A DNA stretch of 35,709 bases from IMG/VR virus record IMGVR_UViG_3300031740_000006, positions 1-35,709 of that record; one strand, 5' to 3'. The translations under genes and the position numbers were made by a program. The DNA comes from a virus. Shown here piece by piece: positions 1,080 through 34,840 of this stretch (positions are counted from its first letter, which is position 1; each line of letters starts with the position of its first letter). The notes under the pieces are model-generated. The model saw nothing but the letters and a program-made list of their open reading frames with translations. It had not been told where the DNA came from and made no database searches.

Positions 1080-2291
1080 ATGGCGCGGATCACTCTCAGC
1101 ACGCATTGGAAGTTCCAACGGCTGGCGCGATCGCTGGGCAGCAAGGTCTTGGCCCGTGGCGTGCTCGAAACGCTCTGGGAGCCCTGCTGGGTGGCCGGCG
1201 ACGCCTATTGCGGAACCAGTCAGGACATCGAGCTGCTGTGCGAGTGGAAGGGCGCGCCAGGCGCGCTCACGACCGCACTGCTCATGGCCGACGCGAAGAA
1301 CGCCGGCTTCATCGAACCCTACACCGGGCAGGTGCGGCGCACGGGCGAGATGCACTATCAAGTGCACGACTTCTTCCACCACTGCCCCGAGTACGTGCGC
1401 AAGCGACACGAGCGCGAGCTCGAGCTGACGTCGCCGAAAATCTGCGTCGTCTGCCGGCAGGAATATTTCGGCCGCACCGTTCGCAGCAAGTACTGCGGCG
1501 ATCGCTGCCGCCAGCTCGCGCATCGCGACTCTGACGGCGTGCCGGTCCGTCCGTCTGTCACGGAACTGTCACGGAACGAGGCCGCTTGTCACGGAACTGT
1601 CACGGAACGCCCCGAAAGTTCCGTGACAGACGAGGTCGAAAAAACACCCCCTTGTCACGATAGTTCCGTGACAGTACTGCAGAAGGGTGTTACCCCTAAC
1701 ATAGACGTTTCCGGAACAAAATCGGACGACGCCGACGGCTGTCACGGAACGGTCACGGAACGTCACGATTGTCACGGAACGTCACAGTACTCACACACAC
1801 ACACACACACACACACACGAGAGTACGTACCAGAGAGCTCCGCGCTGGAAAATCCCAGCGCAGAGCCATCACCGCCATCTCCTAACGTCACCCCTCAGAG
1901 CCCCCCTCCGCTCCCACGCGCTCCGGCCGCACCGCGCGTGAAGGCGATCGCCCCCATGGCCGTGGTGTCGGCGGTGGTCTTGACGTTTCCCACAGTCGGG
2001 AAGGCGCAGACGTGGGAGTTGCGCGAGCAACAGGTGTCCACCTGGCAAACGCTGTTTCCGAATCTCGACGTGCTCGCCGAATGCCGGAAAGCGTTGGCGT
2101 GGGTGGTGGCGAATGGGCGCTCGCGGAAAACGCCGGCCGGTATGGAGCGGTACCTCGTGAACTGGCTCAACCGTTCGACCGATCGCGGCCGCGGCGGAGG
2201 ACCGACGGTGATCGCGGGGTCGCTGAAAACGGCGGGGAATAAAGCGGCGATGGACGAGATTCTGCGGAGGCGCGGCCATGTCCTGGACTGA
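1080..2291 (+). CDS. Phage replication initiator (O-like) containing iterons
   Basis: 403 aa. Residues 1-115 look like a winged-helix region. A zinc knuckle follows with C122, C125, C139 and C143. Residues about 155-300 are a low-complexity linker encoded by repeated TGTCACGGAAC elements and a CA repeat (His-Thr at 239-246). The C-terminal domain at about 305-380 (FPTVG...WQTLFPNLDV...GMERYLVNWLN) resembles the C-terminal part of many phage replication proteins. Iterons inside the initiator gene parallel lambda O, where the origin lies in the O gene. ATG 1080 follows GGAG. The last 14 bases overlap the helicase-loader-like gene, a classic O/P arrangement. Function is inferred from architecture and context. 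Confidence 0.75.
   Translation: MARITLSTHWKFQRLARSLGSKVLARGVLETLWEPCWVAGDAYCGTSQDIELLCEWKGAPGALTTALLMADAKNAGFIEPYTGQVRRTGEMHYQVHDFFHHCPEYVRKRHERELELTSPKICVVCRQEYFGRTVRSKYCGDRCRQLAHRDSDGVPVRPSVTELSRNEAACHGTVTERPESSVTDEVEKTPPCHDSSVTVLQKGVTPNIDVSGTKSDDADGCHGTVTERHDCHGTSQYSHTHTHTHTREYVPESSALENPSAEPSPPSPNVTPQSPPPLPRAPAAPRVKAIAPMAVVSAVVLTFPTVGKAQTWELREQQVSTWQTLFPNLDVLAECRKALAWVVANGRSRKTPAGMERYLVNWLNRSTDRGRGGGPTVIAGSLKTAGNKAAMDEILRRRGHVLD
1556..1790. repeat. Iteron array, probable replication origin
   Basis: The 10-mer GTCACGGAAC occurs forward starting at 1557, 1568, 1588, 1599, 1741, 1752 and 1771. It occurs reversed (GTTCCGTGAC) at 1618-1627 and 1663-1672. Most copies extend to TGTCACGGAAC. Partial copies lie at 1653, 1762 and 1781. 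First-pair spacing is 11 bp, about one helical turn. Dense, oriented repeats inside the initiator gene are the pattern of iteron origins. Matching copies recur at 29283-29327. Confidence 0.8.
1792..1817 (+). repeat. (CA)13 microsatellite in coding sequence
   Basis: Thirteen CA units immediately follow the iteron array and encode alternating His-Thr (residues 239-246). Dinucleotide tracts slip during replication, and any change not divisible by three units would shift the frame of the initiator. It may alternatively help helix opening at the origin. Confidence 0.85.
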
Positions 2292-2853
2292 GAAACAAGA
2301 GCGGGCCTTTATCGAGATGCTCATGGCGCTCGGCGAGGTGTTCAACGAGCCCGTGTCGGTGGTGCGCGGGGAGATGTTCATGCGGCTCGTCGAAGACCTC
2401 CTGTTCGCGCCGGTCATGGCGGCGGCGGTGCAGCTCGGCCGCCGCGCCACGTTCTTTCCCAAGCCCGGTGAGATTCGCGCGCTCGTCGAGGGCAAGGTGG
2501 AGGACCAGGCGGAGCTCGCGTGGACGCATCTGCTGTGCGAAGTCGCGCGCGTCGGCTACATCGGCACGCCGACATGGCCGGACGAGACGACGCAACGTGC
2601 GGCCGAGGGGTTGTTCGGGAGTTGGCGGGCGCTCTGCGAGCGTCTGCCCGCCGGCGGGCCGGAGCTGCTCGGCTTTCGCAAACAGTTCCTTGCGCTCTAT
2701 GGCGCAACAGCGCGCAAGGCGATCGCCGGCGAGCTGGGACCGGGGCGTGCGGAGGCGCGCGGCGTGCTCGAGGGATTGCAGGGCGAACTGAAGAAGCGCG
2801 GCTTGCCGTACGAGGGCGCGTTGCGCGTGGTGCCGAAGGTGCCGAAGCCATGA
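2278..2853 (+). CDS. Helicase-loader-like protein
   Basis: 191 aa, starting inside the 3' end of the initiator gene with a GGAGG-type site upstream. The first 72 residues are helical and end in FFPKPGEIRALVEG (59-72), the kind of F-P-x-x-x-E-I motif seen in G39P-like loaders/inhibitors of replicative helicase and related phage proteins. No Walker motif is present, so it is not a DnaC-type ATPase. Its position directly after the initiator fits delivery of the host helicase to the origin. The family assignment is inference. Its stop overlaps the next start (ATGA). Confidence 0.55.
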   Translation: MSWTEKQERAFIEMLMALGEVFNEPVSVVRGEMFMRLVEDLLFAPVMAAAVQLGRRATFFPKPGEIRALVEGKVEDQAELAWTHLLCEVARVGYIGTPTWPDETTQRAAEGLFGSWRALCERLPAGGPELLGFRKQFLALYGATARKAIAGELGPGRAEARGVLEGLQGELKKRGLPYEGALRVVPKVPKP

Positions 2854-3323
2854 TCGCGACGATCCCCGTCGACATCGTGCACGGCAAGCTGCACATCAGC
2901 GGCTCGGCGCGATCGGCGATTCAGGAGGCGGTGCTCGTGTGGTCGGACGGACCCGCCACGCTCACCGTCGAGCGGGAGTCCGCGACGCGCAGTCCGCAAG
3001 CGAACGCCTACTACTGGGGCGTCGTCGTGAAGTCACTCGCCGATCACACCGGCTACACACCCGACGAGACGCACGACGTGTTGAAGATCAAGTTTCTGCC
3101 GAAGGACGTCGCGCTGCGGACGGGCACCGGCACGGTCATCGCCGAGTTCGTCATCGGCGGCAGCACGCGCGCGTTGTCGGTCGGCGAGTTCTACGACTAC
3201 GTCGAGCGCATCCGCCAATGGGCCTTCGACGCGCTCGAGGTGGACATCCCGCCGGGCGATCCCGCGTGGCGAGGAAAAGAGCCCGAATCTCGCGCCAAAC
3301 CGCCCGATTCGCAATCGGTTTAG
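2850..3323 (+). CDS. ninB: NinB-like recombination protein
   Basis: 157 aa, near the 146 aa of lambda NinB. An N-terminal beta-rich part is followed by SPQANAYYWG (residues 48-57), resembling the conserved QN-x-x-(W/Y) region of NinB-type ssDNA-binding proteins. A C-terminal FYDYVERIRQWAFDALEVDIP segment completes the match. The family feeds phage recombination or replication intermediates to strand-exchange functions. ATG 2850 overlaps the previous stop; the upstream in-frame extension is a shadow of the preceding gene. Last gene of the replication block. Confidence 0.6.
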   Translation: MIATIPVDIVHGKLHISGSARSAIQEAVLVWSDGPATLTVERESATRSPQANAYYWGVVVKSLADHTGYTPDETHDVLKIKFLPKDVALRTGTGTVIAEFVIGGSTRALSVGEFYDYVERIRQWAFDALEVDIPPGDPAWRGKEPESRAKPPDSQSV

Positions 3324-3345: not shown

Positions 3346-4293
3346 ATGGGCCTCACACGCGTTCAGGCCACGCCCGTTGCCACGCCCGTTGGGGCGCCCA
3401 CCGTTGCGGTGACCTTCGCCACGCCCCCCAGCGTGGGGAACAGCGTCGTGGTCGCCGTCATCGGGTCACCCACCACGCCCTTCCCTGTGGGCGCGTGTGT
3501 GGACAACAAGGGGAACGCGCCCTACACGCGGGCGCGGACGCAGGATGGCGGATTCTTCGGGACACTCGGCGTCTACGTCGGCCGCGTCACGGCGACCGGC
3601 AGTTCCTTCACGATCACGATCGCGCCCGGCTTCGGCAGCGTGAACTTTATGGCCGTGGCGTTCGAGGTCGCACAGGTCGGCGGCGGGTTGATTGTGGATG
3701 TGGGCGCGGGTGGCGCGGGCAGTGGGTTGACGCCCTCGACCGTCACCACGACGGGATCGGGCACCGAGAATTTCGTCGTGGCGCTGTGCAGCTTGGGCGC
3801 CACGCAGACCTCCATCGCGATTACCGGCACGGTCCCCGCGTCCCCCACCTGGACGCAGGAGGCCGAGAACCTGACCCTCGCGGGCGAAATCGACAGCCGC
3901 ATTGTGCCGGGACCGACGGTGCATCAAATCACCTGGACCGGGACGGGTTCTGGCTGGATTGGCGCGATGTTGGTGGCGTTGAAGGCGAGTCCGATTCCTG
4001 TTTCCTCCCTCCCGCCTATTCCGTGGGCGGTGGTGAGTGGCTTCTGGAGCAAACACATGGACAGCTATACCGAGTGGATTCCGATTACCGCCTCTGACAC
4101 GGTCGACATCGCCAGCGGCTTGACCCATGCCGTGCTCGTCGGCGGTGCGGGCGACGTGACGGCCGTCATGCAGAACAACCGGGCCGTGACGATCACGGGG
4201 CTGCCGGCCGGCGCGTGGGTGCCGATCCGCGCCAGGCGCATTAACGCGACCGGCACGACCGCGACGGGGCTCGTCGCGCTCTATTCGAGGTGA
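3346..4293 (+). CDS. Spike base protein, RCAP_Rcc01079-like
   Basis: 315 aa. Residues 1-210 are a Gly/Thr/Val-rich beta domain of jelly-roll type. The C-terminal about 70 residues (DTVDIASGLTHAVLVGG...PAGAWVPIRARRINATGTTATGLVALY) match the pattern of phage and gene-transfer-agent spike base proteins, ending in RINATGTTATG. Such proteins anchor receptor-binding enzymes at the tail tip. ATG 3346 has a GGAG 4 nt upstream; ATG 3336 is in another frame. The following hydrolase GTG overlaps its stop, supporting one tail-spike cassette. Confidence 0.6.
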   Translation: MGLTRVQATPVATPVGAPTVAVTFATPPSVGNSVVVAVIGSPTTPFPVGACVDNKGNAPYTRARTQDGGFFGTLGVYVGRVTATGSSFTITIAPGFGSVNFMAVAFEVAQVGGGLIVDVGAGGAGSGLTPSTVTTTGSGTENFVVALCSLGATQTSIAITGTVPASPTWTQEAENLTLAGEIDSRIVPGPTVHQITWTGTGSGWIGAMLVALKASPIPVSSLPPIPWAVVSGFWSKHMDSYTEWIPITASDTVDIASGLTHAVLVGGAGDVTAVMQNNRAVTITGLPAGAWVPIRARRINATGTTATGLVALYSR

Positions 4294-5381
4294 CCGTGTA
4301 TTCCCCCGGTCTGCAAACGCACTTCAACGCGCCCATTGGGCTGGACACGCTCGCGCACCTCGCCGCCGACGTCGGCGTGCGGTGGTGCCGCGTGGACGCC
4401 CAGACCTGCGATACCGCGACGCTGTTGGAGATGATCGCGGATGTCCGGGCCTTCTGGATGGTCCCGCTTCCGATCGTGTACGACCTCGATCGGTTGCGCG
4501 GCGTGCCGGCCGGGATGGATGTCGAGTGGAGCAACGAGCCGGATGGCGACATCCTGCCGAGCCTGTATCGCGAGGGCCTCGATGCGGCGTGCGCGCTGGC
4601 GCTCGAGCTCGGCCTCCGGCTCTGGGGTCCGTGCATCAGCAACCTCGACCGCGATTCGCTGCGGTGGATGGAGATGGTGCGTGGCGACGGCTGGCCGGAT
4701 GGTCTCTACGGCATCACGGTCCATCGCTACGGCAACGGCACGTTCGCGTGGGCGCATGACGGCTTCGACTCACGCGAGGCCGAAGTCGAGAAACTGTTGA
4801 CCCTCTGCGATGGCCGGCCGTTCATGGTGACGGAGTTCGGGTATCCCTCGACGCCGACCGCGCGCATCCGTCGCGGGCCGAAACGCACACGCTTCCTGGC
4901 GCCGGACCTGCAGCTCGACGAAGACCAGCAAGCCGCGAATATCACGAAGGAATGGGCGTTCTGGAAGCCGTACACCGACCGCCCTTTCCTCTACCAGATC
5001 AACGACCCGCCGGATCCAGACGACGGGTGCTATGGCATTCGTCGCTGCTTACCCGATGGCACGCTGACCGACTGGAAACCGGCGGCCTACACCTTTCCGA
5101 AGGAGAGTCCCATGCCTGACCTCGCGCCTGTGAGCGCCAATACCGTGTTCGCGAAAGAAGACCTCGTCGAAGTGCCCGGCCGTGAGGGCGAGTTCGGGAT
5201 CCGGTGCCCGCCGGGCGCCGAGACGTTGCTCTCGCCGAAAACGTCGGGGCATCACGAGCTGCGTGACATGAACGCGCTCGGCGGGCCCGACGAAACGTGT
5301 CAGGTGAAGGGCGACCTCGTCTACTTCTGGCAGAACTCGCAAGGCGGCCGCTTCGCGTGGCGGCTCGCGGACGCGGAGTAG
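4290..5381 (+). CDS. Clan A-like glycoside hydrolase, tail-spike enzyme
   Basis: 363 aa TIM-barrel hydrolase. VEWSNEPDG (residues 78-86) supplies the strand-4 Asn-Glu pair, with E83 as probable acid/base. FMVTEFGYP (178-186) supplies the strand-7 nucleophile E182. H145 lies in VHRYGNG between them. No signal peptide, consistent with virion assembly rather than secretion. GTG 4290 overlaps the previous stop. The last 89 residues form a separate beta-rich module preceded by an in-frame AAGGAGAG and ATG at 5112, so a shorter C-terminal product may also be made. Substrate unknown; probably a host surface glycan. Confidence 0.75.
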   Translation: MTVYSPGLQTHFNAPIGLDTLAHLAADVGVRWCRVDAQTCDTATLLEMIADVRAFWMVPLPIVYDLDRLRGVPAGMDVEWSNEPDGDILPSLYREGLDAACALALELGLRLWGPCISNLDRDSLRWMEMVRGDGWPDGLYGITVHRYGNGTFAWAHDGFDSREAEVEKLLTLCDGRPFMVTEFGYPSTPTARIRRGPKRTRFLAPDLQLDEDQQAANITKEWAFWKPYTDRPFLYQINDPPDPDDGCYGIRRCLPDGTLTDWKPAAYTFPKESPMPDLAPVSANTVFAKEDLVEVPGREGEFGIRCPPGAETLLSPKTSGHHELRDMNALGGPDETCQVKGDLVYFWQNSQGGRFAWRLADAE

Positions 5382-10700: not shown

Positions 10701-11363
10701 CTAGAGCACCGTCGGTTTCCAGACCGGAACGTACCCTTCGTTCACAATCGCGACGTTGTAGACCTCGGTGCCGTTCGGCATCGTGGCATGACCATGCCCG
10801 CCATGGATGTGTCCACACACGACGATTTTCGGCTGCGCGCGTTCGATCGCATCTTTCAGCGCGACCGACCCGAGAAACTGCGTGCCCTCACCGATGATGG
10901 GCACGGCGACGTCGCAGATCCCATGCGGGGGCTGATGACTGACGAGGATGTCGAGGCCGGTGGGGATCTGGGCGTAGACCTTGACGAGCGCCGCGTCCGA
11001 TCGCATGAAGGCCCACTGCATAAACGTGTTGGACCAGGGCGTGCACCAAATCTTCAAACCTTCATACTCGACGAGGGAATCAACAGCGACCGTGACGCGT
11101 GGTCCCAGGTCGAAGCGCGAAGCGGAGTAGGCTTCGCCGCAGAAATCGTGATTGCCCCAGGTCACGATGCAATGGCCCACGGGTTGTTTCGTGAGCCAGT
11201 AGCGCCAGTCACGCAAAAACCAATCACGCTGAAGTGAGGGGTCTTGCCGCGCAGTGACCCTTCTGAATATGTCGGGGCATTGGTCGCCGGCCACGATTAA
11301 GAGATCGCACGCGGGGACTTCGGGGAGATACCCGTGCTGATCACTGAGCGCGACGATCTTCAT
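10701..11363 (-). CDS. Calcineurin-like metallophosphoesterase
   Basis: 220 aa, full-length for small phage phosphoesterases. All metal-binding blocks are present: SDQHG (7-11), AGD (25-27), GNHD (70-73), SHQPP (142-146) and GHIHG (184-188). Two divalent metals would hydrolyse a phosphomonoester or phosphodiester; the substrate could be nucleic acid or a nucleotide signal. The start overlaps the stop of the upstream gene by ATGA-type coupling, and a 1-nt gap separates it from the gene downstream. Confidence 0.9.
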   Translation of the reverse strand: MKIVALSDQHGYLPEVPACDLLIVAGDQCPDIFRRVTARQDPSLQRDWFLRDWRYWLTKQPVGHCIVTWGNHDFCGEAYSASRFDLGPRVTVAVDSLVEYEGLKIWCTPWSNTFMQWAFMRSDAALVKVYAQIPTGLDILVSHQPPHGICDVAVPIIGEGTQFLGSVALKDAIERAQPKIVVCGHIHGGHGHATMPNGTEVYNVAIVNEGYVPVWKPTVL

Positions 11364-11889: not shown

Positions 11890-11966
11890 TGGTGATCGGG
11901 GCGGGACTCCAACCCGCGGCCCCCGCTTTAGAAGAGCGGTGCTCTATGCGACTGAGCTACCCGATC
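11890..11966 (-). tRNA. tRNA-Arg(UCU) with encoded CCA
   Basis: Complete cloverleaf: acceptor GATCGGG/CCCGATC, D stem GCTC/GAGC, anticodon stem CCGCT/AGCGG around loop CTTCTAA (anticodon UCU), T stem GCGGG/CCCGC, discriminator A and CCA. It reads AGA and AGG, rare in GC-rich genes. The T loop is TTGGAGT with G in place of the near-universal C56, which would disturb the D-loop/T-loop contact with G19. The stop codon of the upstream gene lies inside its 5' end. Confidence 0.9.
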
Positions 11967-12435: not shown

Positions 12436-12722
12436 AGGGTTTCTTTCTGTTGCAGCACTTCTGCGTCGTAAATGAGGTCGCTGAGCCGCATTCCGAAGGC
12501 GCAGGCGAGTCGTTGGTAGAAATCGAGGGCCTTGCTCCGGCGTTGGCCGTGCAGGAAATAGCTGACCGCGCTTTGCGACACCCCGAGTTGTTGCCCGAGC
12601 TGCCTTTGGGACCAGCCACGCTGCACCAACCGCTCGTGGACTGTCAGGTGCAGGGCTGCGGCCAGCGTCAGTGGCTGCGGCGGCGGATTCGACGGCGGCT
12701 CAGGGATGAGACGGATCGCCAT
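12432..12722 (-). CDS. Cro/C1-type HTH regulator
   Basis: 96 aa. A Pro-rich N-terminus is followed by a complete HTH_XRE domain at about 34-84 (RGWSQRQLGQQLGVSQSAVS then FYQRLACAFGMRLSDLI). There is no peptidase or dimerisation domain, so it is Cro-sized rather than CI-like. ATG 12722 follows AGGAG with good spacing; an upstream ATG would add eight unlikely residues. It is the only classical regulator in the block and a candidate to act on the divergent promoters at 27052-27135; that link is inference. Confidence 0.85.
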   Translation of the reverse strand: MAIRLIPEPPSNPPPQPLTLAAALHLTVHERLVQRGWSQRQLGQQLGVSQSAVSYFLHGQRRSKALDFYQRLACAFGMRLSDLIYDAEVLQQKETL

Positions 12723-13152
12723 TATCACTCCTACAGACAAGCACACGGCCGTCCTTCCCCAGGCCGCGTGCGTATTTCACCGTCCAGCAGCCGCCGGATT
12801 TTACATGGTCAGCCGTTCCGCAGTGATAACAGAGACGAAACCGCATGCCCGTGTAGTGCGCCGGTAGTCGGTCGATGGTGATGCACACGACCGTCTCGCT
12901 GTCTTCCGCGATGCGGATGTTGCGCGGTTTGTAGCCGTGCTCCCACGACAAGCTGCGGGGCTTATGCTCGACAAACTCGAGCCCGGCGGCCTTCGCTTCC
13001 TCGATCGCGTAGCTGTCGACGCCACCCAGATGGCAGCCACCGCTGATGACGACGTCGCCGGGATGGAGCAGCTCGCGGATGAAGGCCCGCGCCTGGCGCT
13101 CCGTCTCCGCCGTGAACTTCGCCGCCTCGCTGCCGACGATGCCGATTCTCAC
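12700..13152 (-). CDS. SLOG-fold (YspA/cpYpsA-like) phage protein
   Basis: 150 aa. MRIGIVGSEAAKF starts a Rossmann-like fold. GDVVISGGCHLGGVDSYAIEEA supplies the nucleotide-binding SGG turn of the SLOG superfamily (YspA/DUF2493). The C-terminal CYHCG...KSGGCWTVKYA part has a Cys-pair and recurs in phage relatives. SLOG proteins bind nucleotides or nucleotide-derived signals, so roles in NAD/nucleotide sensing or DNA modification are possible. It overlaps the HTH gene start by 23 bp. Confidence 0.65.
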   Translation of the reverse strand: MRIGIVGSEAAKFTAETERQARAFIRELLHPGDVVISGGCHLGGVDSYAIEEAKAAGLEFVEHKPRSLSWEHGYKPRNIRIAEDSETVVCITIDRLPAHYTGMRFRLCYHCGTADHVKSGGCWTVKYARGLGKDGRVLVCRSDNGDPSHP

Positions 13153-17961: not shown

Positions 17962-18142
17962 CGCGCCCTTTCGTTCGCAGTTGGACTACGTCGTCGCCGA
18001 GGTCGAGTTCTGTTTCGTGGTAGCGCCCGACGCGTATCCACTGGTTGTTTACCCATCGCCACACCGCACCCGTGCTGATCTCAATCACGCGAACGTCATC
18101 GGCGCGTCCGACAAAGGTGAGCGGCTCGCGGGGCTTCGTCAT
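17900..18142 (-). CDS. Unknown small phage protein
   Basis: 80 aa. FVGRADDVRVIEIS, VWRWVNNQWIRVGRY and LDLGDDVVQL give a compact beta protein with a Trp-rich centre. The last about 20 residues overlap the next gene by 62 nt, an unusually long overlap here, and are charged and disordered. Gene real, C-terminus less certain. Confidence 0.55.
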   Translation of the reverse strand: MTKPREPLTFVGRADDVRVIEISTGAVWRWVNNQWIRVGRYHETELDLGDDVVQLRTKGRDADDHREPKRPPRADPQKPG

Positions 18143-22944: not shown

Positions 22945-23118
22945 CTAGGTCTTCTCTTTCTGTGATTGGTCGGCGTGCAAGCTCTGTAAGACGCGGAGCA
23001 CTTGCGCGGCCAGGGACTCCACGTCCGTTTCGTTTAGCCGGTGGTAAATGCCGTCCACGTGCAGCTCGACCTCTCGCGTGCCCATCTTGCGTGTGAGTCG
23101 AATGCGCTGACGCCTCAT
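22945..23118 (-). CDS. Small basic phage protein
   Basis: 57 aa, read directly. A basic N-terminus (MRRQRIRLTRKMGTREV) with alternating strand pattern is followed by a helix (DVESLAAQVLRVLQSLHADQ). It is first after the ACACACTATTA element, so it heads a transcription unit. The site AGGAA lies 12 nt upstream. No family recognised. Confidence 0.55.
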   Translation of the reverse strand: MRRQRIRLTRKMGTREVELHVDGIYHRLNETDVESLAAQVLRVLQSLHADQSQKEKT

Positions 23119-23148
23119 GGTTTAATGATGTTCCTTTTACTACTATTT

Positions 23149-23159
23149 TAATAGTGTGT
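23149..23159 (-). promoter_or_regulatory. Shared element ACACACTATTA, copy 2
   Basis: Identical to the element at 20347-20357 and placed about 31 nt before ATG 23118. Next to it, ATAGTAGTAAAA (leftward) resembles the AGTAGTAAA repeats between the divergent promoters near 27090, tying this site to that control region. Confidence 0.45.
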
Positions 23160-23161
23160 CA

Positions 23162-23539
23162 TTAGTCGATGTAGAACCGCAGCTCGCCGTCGTGGGAGTT
23201 GACGGACTGACGCCAGGCGCCCGCCGCTAAGATCTTCATGTTGCCGACGAGCGCTTTGAGGTCGTCATCGGTCGTCTCACGCAGTTCGCTGTCCTCGTCG
23301 GTTAGGTCGATGTGCTCCCGCGCCGTCTCGATGGTGAACGCGGGACTGACGAGAAAGTCGAGGAACGCCTTGCCCGTCTCGATCCACACCTCGGTCCAGT
23401 CGCTGTCTTCGTGGACGCTGGACTGGCTGTTCACAGCCGCCGCGACCCATTCAAAGAGCGCGACGGCATCCTCACTGCTGATAAACACGCTGCTGGCTTC
23501 GCCCCATTTCACGGTCACCGGTCGTAACGATCTACTCAT
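23162..23539 (-). CDS. Unknown acidic phage protein
   Basis: 125 aa, acidic, with helices (EDAVALFEWVAAAVN, TGKAFLDFLV). EDSDWTEVWIE and LTDEDSELRETTDDD give a strongly negative surface. GGAGGG precedes ATG 23539. A DNA-mimic or structural role is possible but unproven. Confidence 0.6.
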   Translation of the reverse strand: MSRSLRPVTVKWGEASSVFISSEDAVALFEWVAAAVNSQSSVHEDSDWTEVWIETGKAFLDFLVSPAFTIETAREHIDLTDEDSELRETTDDDLKALVGNMKILAAGAWRQSVNSHDGELRFYID

Positions 23540-27683: not shown

Positions 27684-28360
27684 AGTTCTACACGCTGCGC
27701 TCGGGCGACAAGGTCACGTCGAAAGACGGCACGTGGCCGACCCAGTACACCAACCGGACCCAGGCGGCGCGAGCTGCGGCGAAGATTCCCAGCGCGGTGG
27801 TCATTCAACGCGGGCGTCCGTTCTACGTCCGGTTGTTCTCGGAGGATGTCGTGTGTCCAGACGGTCCCGCGTGCGCGGACCCCGTCGTGTCAGACTACGC
27901 GACACGCCCACGGCTTGCCGGTGAAGGAGGACGCATGAACGGCGACTGTATCGAGGTGTGGGCGGTGCCAGGCCGCAACAGCATCATTGACGAGATCCAC
28001 CCTGTCACGGGCCTCACGCTCGTCTGCGGGAAGGATGCCGCTGCCGTGCTGGCGTCGGAACCGCTCGCCGTGCGCATGAGCTGGACGGCGTGGCGCGAGG
28101 CCGCGCACCAGCGTCAGCAGACGCCGATCACGTGGTCGGCAGTGCCGGAGGAGGTGTTTTACGAGATGTTGGAAGTCCTGCCTCCGGCGTTCTTGCGCGG
28201 CGGGGCGTTCTTGGTGGGCGAACCGGCCGATCATTGCGTGGTGACGGGTTCCCCGCGTTTCGCGGCGTTCCGGCAGCGTGGCGATCTGTATTACGCGAGC
28301 AATCGGCCCCTGACTATCGCGGAAATGAAAGCAGCGTGTACGTCACCTGCTACACTGTGA
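27680..28360 (+). CDS. DUF1419-like protein, possibly fused
   Basis: 226 aa. Residues 86-226 match DUF1419: TWSAVPEEVFYEMLEVLPP, GAFLVGEPADHCVVTG, SNRPLTIAEMKA. The first 85 residues are a different basic module (GDKVTSKDGTWPTQYTNRTQ). GAAGGAGGACGC directly precedes an in-frame ATG at 27935, the start of the DUF1419 part. So this is either one fused protein or two genes whose intervening stop was lost. DUF1419 function is unknown. Confidence 0.6.
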   Translation: MKFYTLRSGDKVTSKDGTWPTQYTNRTQAARAAAKIPSAVVIQRGRPFYVRLFSEDVVCPDGPACADPVVSDYATRPRLAGEGGRMNGDCIEVWAVPGRNSIIDEIHPVTGLTLVCGKDAAAVLASEPLAVRMSWTAWREAAHQRQQTPITWSAVPEEVFYEMLEVLPPAFLRGGAFLVGEPADHCVVTGSPRFAAFRQRGDLYYASNRPLTIAEMKAACTSPATL

Positions 28361-28371
28361 GGACACGATTT

Positions 28372-28590
28372 ATGGCACTTCGCATGGGCGCACTCTACGA
28401 CGCGCTACGACACGCTCCCGGCATCCCGGAAGACGCGGCACGCCTCGCGGCGGAGGAAGTCGCGAACTACGACAACCGGATCGGCCGCATTGAGGCCGAT
28501 CTGACGCTGCTCAAATGGATGGTGGGCTTTCTCTTGGCGCTCGGCCTCGCGCACTTCTGGCTGACGTTCAGTCTGCTCGGACGGCTCTAA
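28372..28590 (+). CDS. Small membrane-associated protein with coiled coil
   Basis: 72 aa. An acidic helical region (NYDNRIGRIEADLTLLKW) precedes a hydrophobic segment (MVGFLLALGLAHFWLTF) near the C-terminus, one membrane span. Relatives are often mis-annotated as integrase; no recombinase motif is present. Last gene before the terminator. Confidence 0.65.
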   Translation: MALRMGALYDALRHAPGIPEDAARLAAEEVANYDNRIGRIEADLTLLKWMVGFLLALGLAHFWLTFSLLGRL

Positions 28591-28617
28591 CCACTACCCC
28601 GATTTGCACTTCGCTCC

Positions 28618-28655
28618 ACGGACGCGCACACTACTTGCGCGTCCGTTTTCTTTTT
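28618..28655 (+). terminator. Strong rho-independent terminator
   Basis: ACGGACGCGC (28618-28627) pairs perfectly with GCGCGTCCGT (28637-28646) over a 9-nt loop, followed by TTTTCTTTTT. It ends the rightward operon that begins at the divergent promoter. Confidence 0.9.
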
Positions 28656-28660
28656 CCCCA

Positions 28661-29146
28661 ATGAATCTCACACACGGCGAACGTCGCGCTTACGCTCGGG
28701 GCTGTCGCTGTGTCGCGTGTCGTGCGGCGAACGCGGCGTATGTCCAGGCGCACCGCGTCCCGCTCGGCCTCTTGGCCGCTGATGCCGTGCGCGTCCACCT
28801 TCAGCAGCTCGCGGCGCAGGGGTGCGGCATTCGGCAGATTGCCCGACACACGGGCGTTTCGGCGCAGACCGTGGCCGGCATCCGCTCAGGGCGCCGGCGC
28901 CTGTTGCGGGCGTCTACCGCCACGCGCCTGATGGCCGCCACGTCCGACGTGGCCCCCGGCGCACTGGTCGCCGCGACGAAATCGTGGCGCTTCCTCGATA
29001 GCCTCAAACGCGAAGGGTTCACGCGCCGTGCCCTCGCGTGGCATCTCGGCGCTCGCAGTCAGCAGCTCCAACTCGCCAAGCGCTCGATTCGGGCGCACAC
29101 CGCACAGCTCATCGCCAAGCTCTATCACAAGCTCGCCGTCGCCTAG
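28661..29146 (+). CDS. HTH-containing phage protein with Cys-pair
   Basis: 161 aa. HGERRAYARGCRCVACRAANAAYVQAHR, with C-x-C-x2-C, is an N-terminal module seen in several phage DNA-binding proteins. GCGIRQIARHTGVSAQTVAGI at about 58-80 is a helix-turn-helix. The C-terminus has LDSLKREGFTRRALAWHLG, a second possible HTH. No ribosome site precedes ATG 28661, which sits only 5 nt after the terminator T tract, so a leaderless message is possible. Alternative starts lie in the terminator region. Confidence 0.6.
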   Translation: MNLTHGERRAYARGCRCVACRAANAAYVQAHRVPLGLLAADAVRVHLQQLAAQGCGIRQIARHTGVSAQTVAGIRSGRRRLLRASTATRLMAATSDVAPGALVAATKSWRFLDSLKREGFTRRALAWHLGARSQQLQLAKRSIRAHTAQLIAKLYHKLAVA

Positions 29147-29233
29147 CGACACGCCGATCCGGCGGCATAGAGAAGGCCGACCCCCTCAACGTTCGTCGCT
29201 CCTCGGGCATCCTGACGCCTTCCACCAGCTCCC

Positions 29234-29260
29234 AAACAGCCTAAACAGCCACAACAGCCA
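29234..29260 (+). repeat. Three tandem 9-mers
   Basis: AAACAGCCT, AAACAGCCA and CAACAGCCA are contiguous and lie 23 nt before the first full iteron. Tandem 9-mers next to iterons are common in phage and plasmid origins, although they are not DnaA boxes. Confidence 0.6.
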
Positions 29261-29282
29261 ATAGACGCCGTTTTGTCACGGC

Positions 29283-29327
29283 TGTCACGGAACGTCACGG
29301 AACGTGTCACGGAACGGTTCCGTGACA
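29283..29327. repeat. Second iteron cluster, including a 23-bp palindrome
   Basis: TGTCACGGAAC at 29283-29293 and 29305-29315, GTCACGGAAC at 29294-29303, and the reverse GTTCCGTGACA at 29317-29327. The last two together with G29316 form a perfect 23-bp palindrome (29305-29327). A partial copy (TGTCACGG) begins at 29274. The sequence is identical to the repeats in the initiator gene. Confidence 0.85.
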
Positions 29328-29428
29328 GCACCATCACGCGCCGCAAGCTCAACCGGCAGCTATCACCGCTGCCTTGCGTTGCCGCCGCGACGGTTAGCGA
29401 TAGGAAATCGGCTGTTAGGAGAACTCCG

Positions 29429-29950
29429 TTGCCAAGGGCGAACATCACCACGCCAAAAGGCGAGCGTTATCCAGGCTCAGGCCGTAAGAAAGGCACGCCA
29501 AACCGCGTCAGTGTGGCCGCGAAAGTCCTTGTCGGTGAACTCGTTACCGACGCTCGCTACCAAATGAAGCTCCGCCGCGACTTCGTTGCACGCAAGGTGC
29601 ATCCGGCTATCGAGTCGCTCGTCTGGAGCTATCACCTGGGCAAGCCGTCGCAACCGCTGGAAGTCACCGGCAGCATGGCGCTCGACGTTCATGCACGGCT
29701 CGAGGAAGAACGCCGCGTCTTCGCGCAGCTCGATATTCGCGACCTCGAGCAGCTCGCCGCCGAGTCACAAGCGCTGGTCGATCGCGCGTTCCAGCTCGCC
29801 AAGATCGCGAGTAATGCGCCGCAAGACCCACAAGATGTTGTGGTTAGGGAAAACGAGGAGAATCCACCCTCGGAAATGCTAGGAAAAGGGGCTGAGTCCT
29901 ATAAGCGCGCTTATGATAACCAAACCCCATCCGACGAGGAGGATCGCTAA
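29429..29950 (+). CDS. terS: Small terminase subunit (probable)
   Basis: 173 aa. An N-terminal GSGRKKGTPNR (residues 16-26), Gly/Lys/Arg-Pro-Asn, is the typical small-terminase DNA-recognition start. It is followed by a helical region (VAAKVLVGELVTDARYQMK) and a long coiled-coil helix (ARLEEERRVFAQLDIRDLEQL). AGGAG lies 7 nt before TTG 29429; an ATG-type extension upstream would run through the iterons. It is near the large terminase with only small genes between. A perfect palindrome ATAAGCGCGCTTAT sits near its 3' end (29901-29914). Confidence 0.65.
   Translation: MPRANITTPKGERYPGSGRKKGTPNRVSVAAKVLVGELVTDARYQMKLRRDFVARKVHPAIESLVWSYHLGKPSQPLEVTGSMALDVHARLEEERRVFAQLDIRDLEQLAAESQALVDRAFQLAKIASNAPQDPQDVVVRENEENPPSEMLGKGAESYKRAYDNQTPSDEEDR
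29901..29914. other. Palindrome ATAAGCGCGCTTAT
   Basis: Perfect 14-bp palindrome near the 3' end of the small terminase gene, in a relatively AT-rich stretch. Possible pac/cos-associated or regulator site; no other evidence. Confidence 0.4.
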
Positions 29951-30415
29951 ATGCCATTCTCCCAATGGGTTGCGCGTGTAAGTTCATATGTCATTGATGC
30001 GTTTCTAGTCAACCATAATCGACACCGCATTACGTCCGCGCCAGGCACGGCGGAGGCAAGAGGCATCGAGGCATCGATGACCGCCGCGACGACGAGGGCG
30101 ACGACCCACCCCCCCCACCCTATGGCACCCCACCCCATGCCGGGTGCGAAGTCGAACACGGGCGCCGCCGCCCCGGCCCCCACTGTACCTCTCGTATCGG
30201 AGCAGCGGGTCCTCTCTGTGGAGGCGCGCTGGTCGCGCTGGAAGGCGCTAAGTGTGTTTCGAAAGGGCGGTGCCCGCCCGTGCGCATGTGAGCCTTTTGC
30301 TGGCAATTCCGCGGAATCGTGGCGGCAGGCGCAAAACGAGTTAGCGGCACGGTGCCGGAAAAAGGGCCCCCCGGTGGGGGGTGATCCTGGGGCTGGGGCG
30401 GGTCATGGCGTCTGA
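29951..30415 (+). CDS. Doubtful open frame after small terminase
   Basis: 154 aa if real. It starts directly after the small-terminase stop, with GAGGAGG 8 nt upstream, which is a strong ribosome site. But after about 30 residues (MPFSQWVARVSSYVIDAF) the product is low-complexity, Pro/Ala/Arg-rich (THPPHPMAPHPMPG), and looks non-coding. Either a short gene with an accidental extension, or an untranslated stretch. About 29951-30404 has no better candidate. Confidence 0.3.
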   Translation: MPFSQWVARVSSYVIDAFLVNHNRHRITSAPGTAEARGIEASMTAATTRATTHPPHPMAPHPMPGAKSNTGAAAPAPTVPLVSEQRVLSVEARWSRWKALSVFRKGGARPCACEPFAGNSAESWRQAQNELAARCRKKGPPVGGDPGAGAGHGV

Positions 30416-30638
30416 GGGGGGCCCCATCCGCGGGGCGGCGGAGCTCGCGCAGGCGTTGCGGGCGCGGGCGGGGCTGTTGGGCGGGCAGGGGTGGGAGGTG
30501 CCGGCGACGGTGGCGATGATGCGGGAGGCGGCGGATCGGATTGAGCGGGACGCGAGGGCGGTGCGCGAGCTCGTGCGGGTGATTGATGCGGCGATCGCAC
30601 TGCTGGCGGAGCCGCCGGCGGAGTTGGAAAAGCGCTAA
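30405..30638 (+). CDS. Small helical protein
   Basis: 77 aa, ELAQALRARAGLLGG, VPATVAMMREAADRIERDA and VRELVRVIDAAIALL form helices. Small proteins with this 'AADRIER' pattern occur among phage structural-region genes. No known function. Confidence 0.6.
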   Translation: MASEGGPIRGAAELAQALRARAGLLGGQGWEVPATVAMMREAADRIERDARAVRELVRVIDAAIALLAEPPAELEKR

Positions 30639-32839: not shown

Positions 32840-33089
32840 TCCGGCGCTGGTCGCGATCGACACGATCGCGGTGCCGCGCACCTGGATTGCCGCGCACGGC
32901 TGGCCGCGCACCTTCGACGCGCTCGTGGCGCTCGAGGCCGCCGGCACCGAGGGCGTGCACCGCAGCATCAACCCCAGAGGCGATCTCGTCTACGAGATCC
33001 AGCGGCGCGTCCCGCCGGTGGCGGTCTTTCGGCACGGGCCCAAGGGCGAAGCGTTTCTGTATGTGCAGGGCTGGGACGGACCCGCGTAA
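32808..33089 (+). CDS. Unknown small phage protein
   Basis: 93 aa. IDTIAVPRTWIAAHGW and a beta-rich C-terminus (PPVAVFRHGPKGEAFLYV). AAGGAGG precedes ATG 32808. Its stop overlaps the large-terminase ATG by one base. Confidence 0.65.
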   Translation: MSTPKLPKPIDPALVAIDTIAVPRTWIAAHGWPRTFDALVALEAAGTEGVHRSINPRGDLVYEIQRRVPPVAVFRHGPKGEAFLYVQGWDGPA

Positions 33090-34840
33090 TGGAGCAGCCG
33101 GAGATCCAACCCGCCTTTCTCGATTTCCTCGTCCAGCGCAACGAGATCATTCAGTCGCTCGTCGGGGAAGCGCACGGCTGGAAAATCACGCGCTACTTCC
33201 ACGACTGCCTCCCGACGTGTCAGCCCGACTCGGATAATCCCGAAGACCACACGCCGCTCCGCCCCGATCAAGGCCCGACCTGTCGCAAGCTCTACAAAAA
33301 AGCGCGCCGCTGGCTCCGTGCCGGCCAGCACTATCCCGAACGCGGCTTCATCGCGGCGAACCGCATCGGCAAAACGGACACCGCCGCCTACGAGGTGACG
33401 TGTCATCTCACTGGCCGGTATCCGTCGTGGTGGGAGGGGAAGCGCTGGGATCGGCCGACGGATTGGCGCGTCGCGGGCGACACGATGCTCACGACCCGCG
33501 ACATTCTGCAGAAGGCGTTGCTCGGGCCGCATGAAGGCGTGCCGGTCAAAGAGTGGAGCGGCATGATCCCGCCGCGCGCGGTCCTCGACGTCACGCGGCG
33601 GTCGGGCGGCATCACCAACTGCGTCGACACGATTCATGTCCGCCATGTCTCGGGCGGCGTCTCCCGGCTGAGCTTTTTGTCCTACGACATGGGCCGCCGC
33701 GTCTTTCAGGGATTCGATTGCGACGGGTTCTGGATCGATGAGGAACCGCCCGACCCCGCCGAACGCGCGGAAGCCGTGGCCGCCGGCTCGGGCGACATCT
33801 ACGGCGAGTGTTTGCTCCGCACGATGACCACCGATGGGATTGTCATCGCGACGTTCACGCCGCTCCGCGGCTGGACGGCGTTCATGCGCGGCTACTTCGC
33901 GGCGGCGATGATGCCGGGCACCGAAGGCGATGACGAGATCGACGTGCCGGCCAAGACCGCCGTCACGAGCACGCTCGAGGGCGCCGCGGCCGAAGCCGAT
34001 GAAACCGACTTCGCGGTCCAGTCCGACAAGGTCGTGGTCGCGGCCGACACGAATCCCTATGCGTCCGTCCGCCCGCGCTTCATCATCGGCGCGACCTGGG
34101 ACGATGCGCCGCATCTCACCGAGAAGGTCAAGGCGCAGCAGTGGGCGTCGATGCTCCCGTATCAGCGCGCCGCGCGCACGAAGGGCATTCCCCAGCTCGG
34201 CGCCGGCGCGGTCTATCCGATCGACGAGGGCGATCTGCGCGTTGCGGACTTCGCGATTCCCGAGCACTGGTGGCGCGGGTTCGGGATGGACGTCGGCGGC
34301 GGCGCGAAACCCACCGCGGCCGTGTTCTGCGCGCTCAACCCCGATGACCGCGTGCTGTATGTGACCTCCGTCTACAAACGCGCGAGTAATGAACCGTCGC
34401 TCCACGCGGCGGCGATCAAGGAACGGATGATGCGGCCGACCGGCTGGTTGTGGCCGGGCGTCGGCGACGCGGCGGCGCTCATCATGACGGACCACGACGC
34501 CGAACAGTTGGTGTACGTCTATCGCCGCCTCGGGCTGCAGCTCTATCTGCCGGACAAAGCGGTCGAGACCGGGATCGCGGACCTGTGGGATCTGATGGTG
34601 ACGGGGCGCTTCAAGGTATTCGCGTCCTGTCAGGCCTGGTTCGATGAGTTCCGGATGTATCGCCGCGACGCGCGCGGGCGCGTCGTGAAGAGCAACGACC
34701 ACGTCATGGACTCGACGCGCTACATGGCGCGCTCCGGGATCGCGCGCATGAAGCGCAAACCCGCCAAAGGATCGGAGGAGCTGTCGAAGGTCCTCCCGTT
34801 CGATCGCAACAGCGTCAATCTCGGCTGGATGGGGGGTTGA
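33089..34840 (+). CDS. terL: Terminase large subunit
   Basis: 583 aa. Walker A AANRIGKT (89-96), Walker B GFWIDEEP (213-220, D217 and E218/E219), coupling motif FTPLRG (256-261), and nuclease acidic residues GMDVGGG (D401) and NDHVMDSTRYM in the C-terminal part. The ATPase motor pumps DNA into the prohead and the RNase H-like nuclease cuts it. Residues about 270-330 form an insertion (Ala/Asp/Glu-rich) between the motor and linker. ATG 33089 overlaps the previous stop by one base. Its class (headful or cos) cannot be decided from the sequence. Confidence 0.9.
   Translation: MEQPEIQPAFLDFLVQRNEIIQSLVGEAHGWKITRYFHDCLPTCQPDSDNPEDHTPLRPDQGPTCRKLYKKARRWLRAGQHYPERGFIAANRIGKTDTAAYEVTCHLTGRYPSWWEGKRWDRPTDWRVAGDTMLTTRDILQKALLGPHEGVPVKEWSGMIPPRAVLDVTRRSGGITNCVDTIHVRHVSGGVSRLSFLSYDMGRRVFQGFDCDGFWIDEEPPDPAERAEAVAAGSGDIYGECLLRTMTTDGIVIATFTPLRGWTAFMRGYFAAAMMPGTEGDDEIDVPAKTAVTSTLEGAAAEADETDFAVQSDKVVVAADTNPYASVRPRFIIGATWDDAPHLTEKVKAQQWASMLPYQRAARTKGIPQLGAGAVYPIDEGDLRVADFAIPEHWWRGFGMDVGGGAKPTAAVFCALNPDDRVLYVTSVYKRASNEPSLHAAAIKERMMRPTGWLWPGVGDAAALIMTDHDAEQLVYVYRRLGLQLYLPDKAVETGIADLWDLMVTGRFKVFASCQAWFDEFRMYRRDARGRVVKSNDHVMDSTRYMARSGIARMKRKPAKGSEELSKVLPFDRNSVNLGWMGG

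Follow-up and report, generated by a model that had tools for sequence, protein, structure and literature searches.

We found that a short repeated word, TGTCACGGAAC, which is clustered inside the putative replication initiator gene of this phage, is clustered a second time in the late region, beside the terminase genes. With slightly more confidence than doubt, we read the second cluster as a distant binding site for the phage's own initiator, which may work as a late origin or fork barrier like that of phage SPP1. The window that we analyzed is a 35,709-nt (35.7-kb) stretch of DNA from a soil phage, IMG/VR record IMGVR_UViG_3300031740_000006. Over the whole window there are 13 matches to the word at one mismatch or fewer, where 0.90 would be expected, and 100 shuffles gave a maximum of 3. 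Nine of the copies lie at 1556-1780 (cluster 1) and four at 29283-29327 (cluster 2), which places the clusters 27.5 kb apart as measured on the contig, since the window probably covers only part of a larger phage. When the window was scanned blind for clustered k-mers, these two places ranked first and second and there was no third cluster of the word, in agreement with the original prediction that nothing similar would be seen elsewhere in the window.

Cluster 1 lies within a 403-aa open reading frame (1080-2291, plus strand) that we annotate as a putative replication initiator (replisome organizer) from its C-terminal match and its linker repeats. The protein has an N-terminal domain, a C4-type zinc-finger-like stretch, a long linker and a conserved C-terminal domain, and the nine copies (seven plus and two minus, at one mismatch or fewer) fall in the linker, between the zinc-finger-like stretch and the C-terminal domain. 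They occupy all three reading frames and both strands of the ORF, so selection is on the DNA and not on the peptide. We presume this cluster to be the primary origin. By nearest-neighbour stability, its least stable 50-bp stretch (1673-1722) is a candidate unwinding element, with just 0.9% of window positions being less stable. Residues 314-371 of the protein match gp42, a 'replisome organizer' of Ruminococcus phage phiRgIBDN1, at 41% (E 6e-7). There was no Pfam match, a search of a plasmid collection gave only short C-terminal matches, and AlphaFold, run on two sequences, gave a usable model for the C-terminal domain only (N-terminal pLDDT 24-44). Scans that used the initiator or the terS-like protein described below as a single sequence found no confirmed relatives, and alignment searches with the two recovered no contigs beyond those already found. 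Adjoining the initiator gene is a conserved partner gene (2278-2853, plus strand, phrog_10105) in the position of a helicase loader, and then a gene for a NinB/Orf-like recombination mediator (2850-3323, plus strand; phrog_72, E 1.2e-14).

Cluster 2, the presumed second initiator site, sits in the gap between a gene for an XRE-like helix-turn-helix (HTH) protein (28604-29146, plus strand; PF13936, phrog_1590/769/6831) and a 173-aa ORF that starts at 29429. Three forward copies at 29283-29293 (exact), 29293-29303 (one mismatch) and 29305-29315 (exact) are followed by an exact reverse copy at 29317-29327. A partial fifth copy at 29274-29284 (8/11) extends the cluster to 29274-29327, with start spacings of 9, 10, 12 and 12 bp. 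The last two copies form a perfect 23-bp palindrome, TGTCACGGAAC-G-GTTCCGTGACA, at 29305-29327. Beside the cluster, three near-identical 9-mers (AAACAGCCT/AAACAGCCA/CAACAGCCA) stand in tandem on the plus strand at 29234-29260, and the 50-bp stretch from 29229 is among the 5% least stable. On rescanning, the extent of the cluster, its three forward copies and one reverse copy in an intergenic region, the palindrome and the tandem 9-mers were all as first described. An IMG/VR scan for the exact inverted pair TGTCACGGAAC..GTTCCGTGACA gave no match. We rejected an RNA element at cluster 2, as the fold at the palindrome is modest (z = -2.2) and is accounted for by the palindrome. An Rfam search of the window found only a tRNA; a tRNA-Arg(TCT) gene lies at 11890-11966 on the minus strand.

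The 173-aa ORF downstream of the cluster (29429-29950, plus strand) has a TTG start and an AGGAG ribosome site. No family model recognises it. It weakly matches (E 0.01) an ORF annotated as terS, upstream of terL, in Synechococcus phage Yong-M2-251, and a terS-like gene upstream of TerL is conserved in three relatives. By position and this weak match, it is probably the small terminase. The cluster had been placed beside the small terminase from the start; the position is right, and the name of the neighbor carries the weakness of the match. The large terminase (33089-34840, plus strand; PF03237, PF17289) is a relative of the P22-like podovirus TerL, at 41% against that of EBPR podovirus 1.

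Searches with TerL led to six contigs that are 79-89% identical over TerL. One of these, G001 (IMG/VR IMGVR_UViG_3300015371_000007, 94.5 kb, TerL 85% identical to the window's), is the sole relative with the initiator and the terminase-side genes on one contig. It carries orthologs of the initiator (51% identical) and, beside it, of the partner gene (60% identical), along with NinB, HTH and terS-like genes. The word in its initiator linker is a different one, GTAACGGC, with four exact copies and six GTAACG at 12660-12835. This word makes a second cluster about 350 bp downstream of the terS-like gene, with four exact copies at 30117-30178 and six GTAACG that run through 30199; two further GTAACG are at the end of the terS-like gene (29757, 29766). 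Of nine exact GTAACGGC occurrences in the 94.5 kb, eight are inside the two clusters and one is elsewhere, and when a 20-kb stretch of G001 was shuffled 200 times, four copies never arose. The window has 13 occurrences of GTCACGGAA and G001 has none. The words of the two phages are related (TGTCACGG vs TGTAACGG). Since G001 is without the window's word and has its own at both sites, both sites have changed word together. A joint change points to one DNA-binding protein, most simply the initiator, and we regard it as well supported by these sequences that a single protein would act at both clusters.

Two other origins for the second cluster, chance or a copy of the initiator region that was moved by recombination and is drifting without function, are very improbable. 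The clusters are short and intergenic DNA tolerates insertions, but chance is excluded by the shuffles of both the window and G001. A moved copy does not fit with clusters that have only the word in common while their surrounding sequence differs, nor with G001, which independently has two clusters with a changed word. The original prediction named a lack of the second cluster in relatives as evidence against it, and in the one relative with both genes the result went the other way. It also asked whether relatives have both clusters in the same places: G001 does keep both, with the second on the opposite side of the terS-like gene.

Outside G001, the contig L006 has a weaker cluster in the gap that separates its HTH gene from its terS-like gene (three GAAACGG and one reversed CTGTAACGGC), on a contig without the initiator. 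The contig L008, which also does not include the initiator, has no recognisable second cluster. Within 100 bp of L008 (1745-1845) TATGCA occurs three times, its only occurrences in 12 kb, and this group follows the terS-like gene at about 340 bp, where G001 has its second cluster.

Cluster 2 precedes the terS-like gene in the window and L006 and follows it in G001, which bears on whether it could be an operator. As an operator, the cluster would let rising initiator bind a late-gene leader and repress or time its transcription, so that replication is linked to late expression. In the window and L006 the cluster precedes the start of the terS-like gene by approximately 90-150 bp, and in G001 another small ORF, with a ribosome site, follows it directly, all of which an operator would predict. 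However, a site found on opposite sides of the terS-like gene has no single target gene, making a dedicated terS operator less likely, and 28500-30000 holds no sigma-70-like promoter by a consensus that may not be that of the host. We consider an operator unlikely, though a serious alternative.

There are other conserved features in this region. A non-coding GAGGGGGGCCCCATCCGCGGGG(G)CGGC element is near-identical 3' of the terS-like gene in the window (30414-30439), L006 (~2964-2990) and a further contig, L007 (~20-45). Upstream of it is a second conserved stretch, GGTACCTCTCG..CCGCGAAC.GGGTCC, in G001 and L006 and more weakly in the window and L008. These stretches near the terS-like gene are possible promoter, pac or leader elements. 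Cumulative GC skew has a local minimum at 30193 in the window, 30009 in G001, 2926 in L006 and 1705 in L008, which in all four is about 0.25-0.3 kb after the terS-like gene; in the window it is 0.9 kb from cluster 2. We did not accept the skew vertex at 30.0-30.2 kb in the window and G001 as the sign of an origin, as it spans only 2-3 kb and may follow gene composition.

We also found 20 more distant relatives of the partner gene, and fetched and scanned 14 of their contigs. Nine initiator-position clusters (G007-G010, G012, G016-G018 and G024, with G017 and G018 sharing a word set) were scored for recurrence. In these nine, a word is clustered approximately 350-600 bp upstream of the partner gene, at the location of the initiator gene. 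A second cluster on the scale of those in the window and G001 is absent from all nine, the best groups outside being three copies of common words with one mismatch, and the 8-mer two-site pattern is absent from three TerL-related annotated podoviruses (EBPR podovirus 1, CV-1-33 and ct2G2228). Repeats at the initiator position thus seem to accompany these initiators generally, and the second cluster accompanies the window's lineage. The expectation of a second cluster in relatives is borne out for G001 and not for these nine or for L008, where none is recognisable.

The initiator-position iterons are at 33795-33912 in G007 (CATCTGGT), 23072-23177 in G008 (CCAGATCT), 4043-4178 in G009 (CCGGAAGC), 38134-38246 in G012 (AAGTTCCC), 4631-4688 in G016 (GCGTGCCC), 10797-10842 in G018 (ATCTGACC) and 17971-18065 in G024 (TCCCTCCA). 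These differing words are a ready set for studying how initiator specificity evolves. In three of these contigs, other words (ACTGGCA, GGGAGCA), unrelated to the linker words, form strong clusters at several kb from the initiator (G007 28081-28185, G008 29828-30024, G009 35818-35933).

The distant relatives also help in choosing the protein that binds. If the word were the site of the XRE-like HTH protein, cluster 2 would be an operator downstream of that protein's own gene, and the copies within the initiator gene would be another, controlling replication. Cluster 2 starts about 130 bp (window) or 200 bp (L006) after the HTH gene and contains a palindrome, as is typical of XRE dimers, and the HTH gene travels with the terS/terL module. 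However, direct repeats in tandem account for most of the copies, about 1.15 kb separates cluster 2 from the HTH gene in G001, and the nine relatives with initiator-position repeats gave no tblastn match to the HTH gene, so we think the HTH protein a quite unlikely binder. An AlphaFold model of it gave weak XRE-type matches, and searching a phage collection with the DNA and with the HTH protein gave no match. Relatives in which no HTH gene was detected still have repeats at the initiator position, which makes the initiator the best candidate for the protein that would bind both clusters.

We call the window a probable fragment because its left end resembles an attachment region and because G001 suggests a genome of at least 90 kb. 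At this end (74-334), which looks like an attachment or integrase-arm region, there are three copies of GGGGTGGGCAG (74-84, 313-323 and 324-334) and an inverted repeat, GTTAGGTCACA/TGTGACCTAAC (261-292), not far from a tRNA-like fragment at about 120-200. In G001, GGCTGGCA repeats at 11245-11316 lie just 3' of the integrase gene. G001 also has a 7,823-codon ORF (54822-78293), probably a giant multi-domain phage protein, which suggests that the window's phage is about 90 kb or more.

We infer that cluster 1 is the origin and that cluster 2 has its role in replication rather than transcription. The initiator would assemble on the copies within its own gene and, in the late region next to the terminase genes, on cluster 2 as well. 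By analogy with SPP1 oriR, this second complex would have a late role, as another origin or as a barrier at which forks stall and restart, and near the place where packaging starts it would promote the change from circle-to-circle to concatemeric replication. This main reading is favored by the less stable DNA that flanks both clusters in the window and by the C-terminal match to a replisome organizer. Against it, the co-change rests on one relative, and the second cluster is small (4-6 copies) and not general. The surroundings of cluster 2 in G001 are not specially unstable (12.6% of positions are less stable), so a shared binding site has stronger evidence behind it than an origin proper.

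More tentatively, and as a rather unlikely case, the second site would be a late origin beside pac that physically ties the replication switch to the onset of packaging, perhaps through direct contact of initiator and terminase. One initiator would then have two co-evolving sites, with the second held beside the terminase genes despite crossing terS. Cluster 2 could instead be a pac-linked or titration site with no replication start, where bound initiator guides the terminase or limits initiation by handcuffing, which is known for iteron replicons. The cluster adjoins the terminase genes, as such a site might, and a late origin next to pac is proposed for ICP1 (PMC7145576), but the sequence offers nothing to separate this from the main reading of a late-acting initiator site; we judge it decidedly unlikely. 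How tailed phages switch from theta to concatemer replication, and whether this is tied to packaging, is an old question that has been studied mainly in SPP1 and lambda. A linker word that recurs in a second cluster is a sequence signature by which such phages could be discovered computationally.

In origins of the lambda O and P22 gp18 type, iterons lie in the linker-coding part of the initiator gene, as in lambda O. The window is similar in that its iterons are under selection as DNA inside the initiator coding sequence. The conserved neighbor at 2278-2853 has the position of a P-like helicase loader and belongs to phrog_10105, a family with no functional annotation. For lambda and P22, no second iteron cluster close to the terminase genes is known to us. 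In Vibrio phage ICP1, a late, rolling-circle-like origin near pac was proposed from read depth (PMC7145576). Both phages may have a late-acting origin close to the packaging site, proposed for ICP1 and inferred here, but that of ICP1 is known from coverage rather than from a further cluster of iterons for the early initiator. The window also resembles satellite phage P4 in probably having one initiator for repeats at two sites, and differs from it in the type of initiator, the satellite status and the distance between the sites. In P4, the alpha protein is a primase-helicase that carries an origin-binding domain; the repeats it binds form two sites (ori1/crr), both of them needed and only a few kb apart, and P4 is a satellite without its own terminase.

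The closest system is that of the Bacillus phage SPP1, whose oriL lies within its initiator gene, gene 38, and whose oriR is about 13 kb away in a part of the late region that is non-coding; G38P (gp38) binds both, and at oriR it is proposed to stall the fork and start concatemers (PMC6316719, PMC3485210). As this is the same layout and a direct precedent, the original prediction of an undescribed system is not upheld. The window and G001 are different from SPP1 in the repeat, in a second site that is beside terS and not inside the head-gene block, and in the separation of the sites (27.5 kb for the window and about 17 kb for the 94.5-kb G001, compared with about 13 kb on the 44-kb SPP1 genome). 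SPP1 is also lytic, and the likeness is drawn from layout, with no demonstrated homology to gp38. An A+T-rich unwinding element of the SPP1 type would be among the least stable 1% at site 1 of the window and 5% at site 2, and 12.6% at site 2 of G001. As in SPP1, a cluster of repeats lies within the initiator's own gene (nine copies in the window, G001 with its own set) and a second cluster of the same repeat is in a distant non-coding late region (29283-29327 in the window, 30117-30199 in G001). A second lineage with this two-site layout, in which the words at both sites change together, would be independent evolutionary evidence that a distant initiator site functions.
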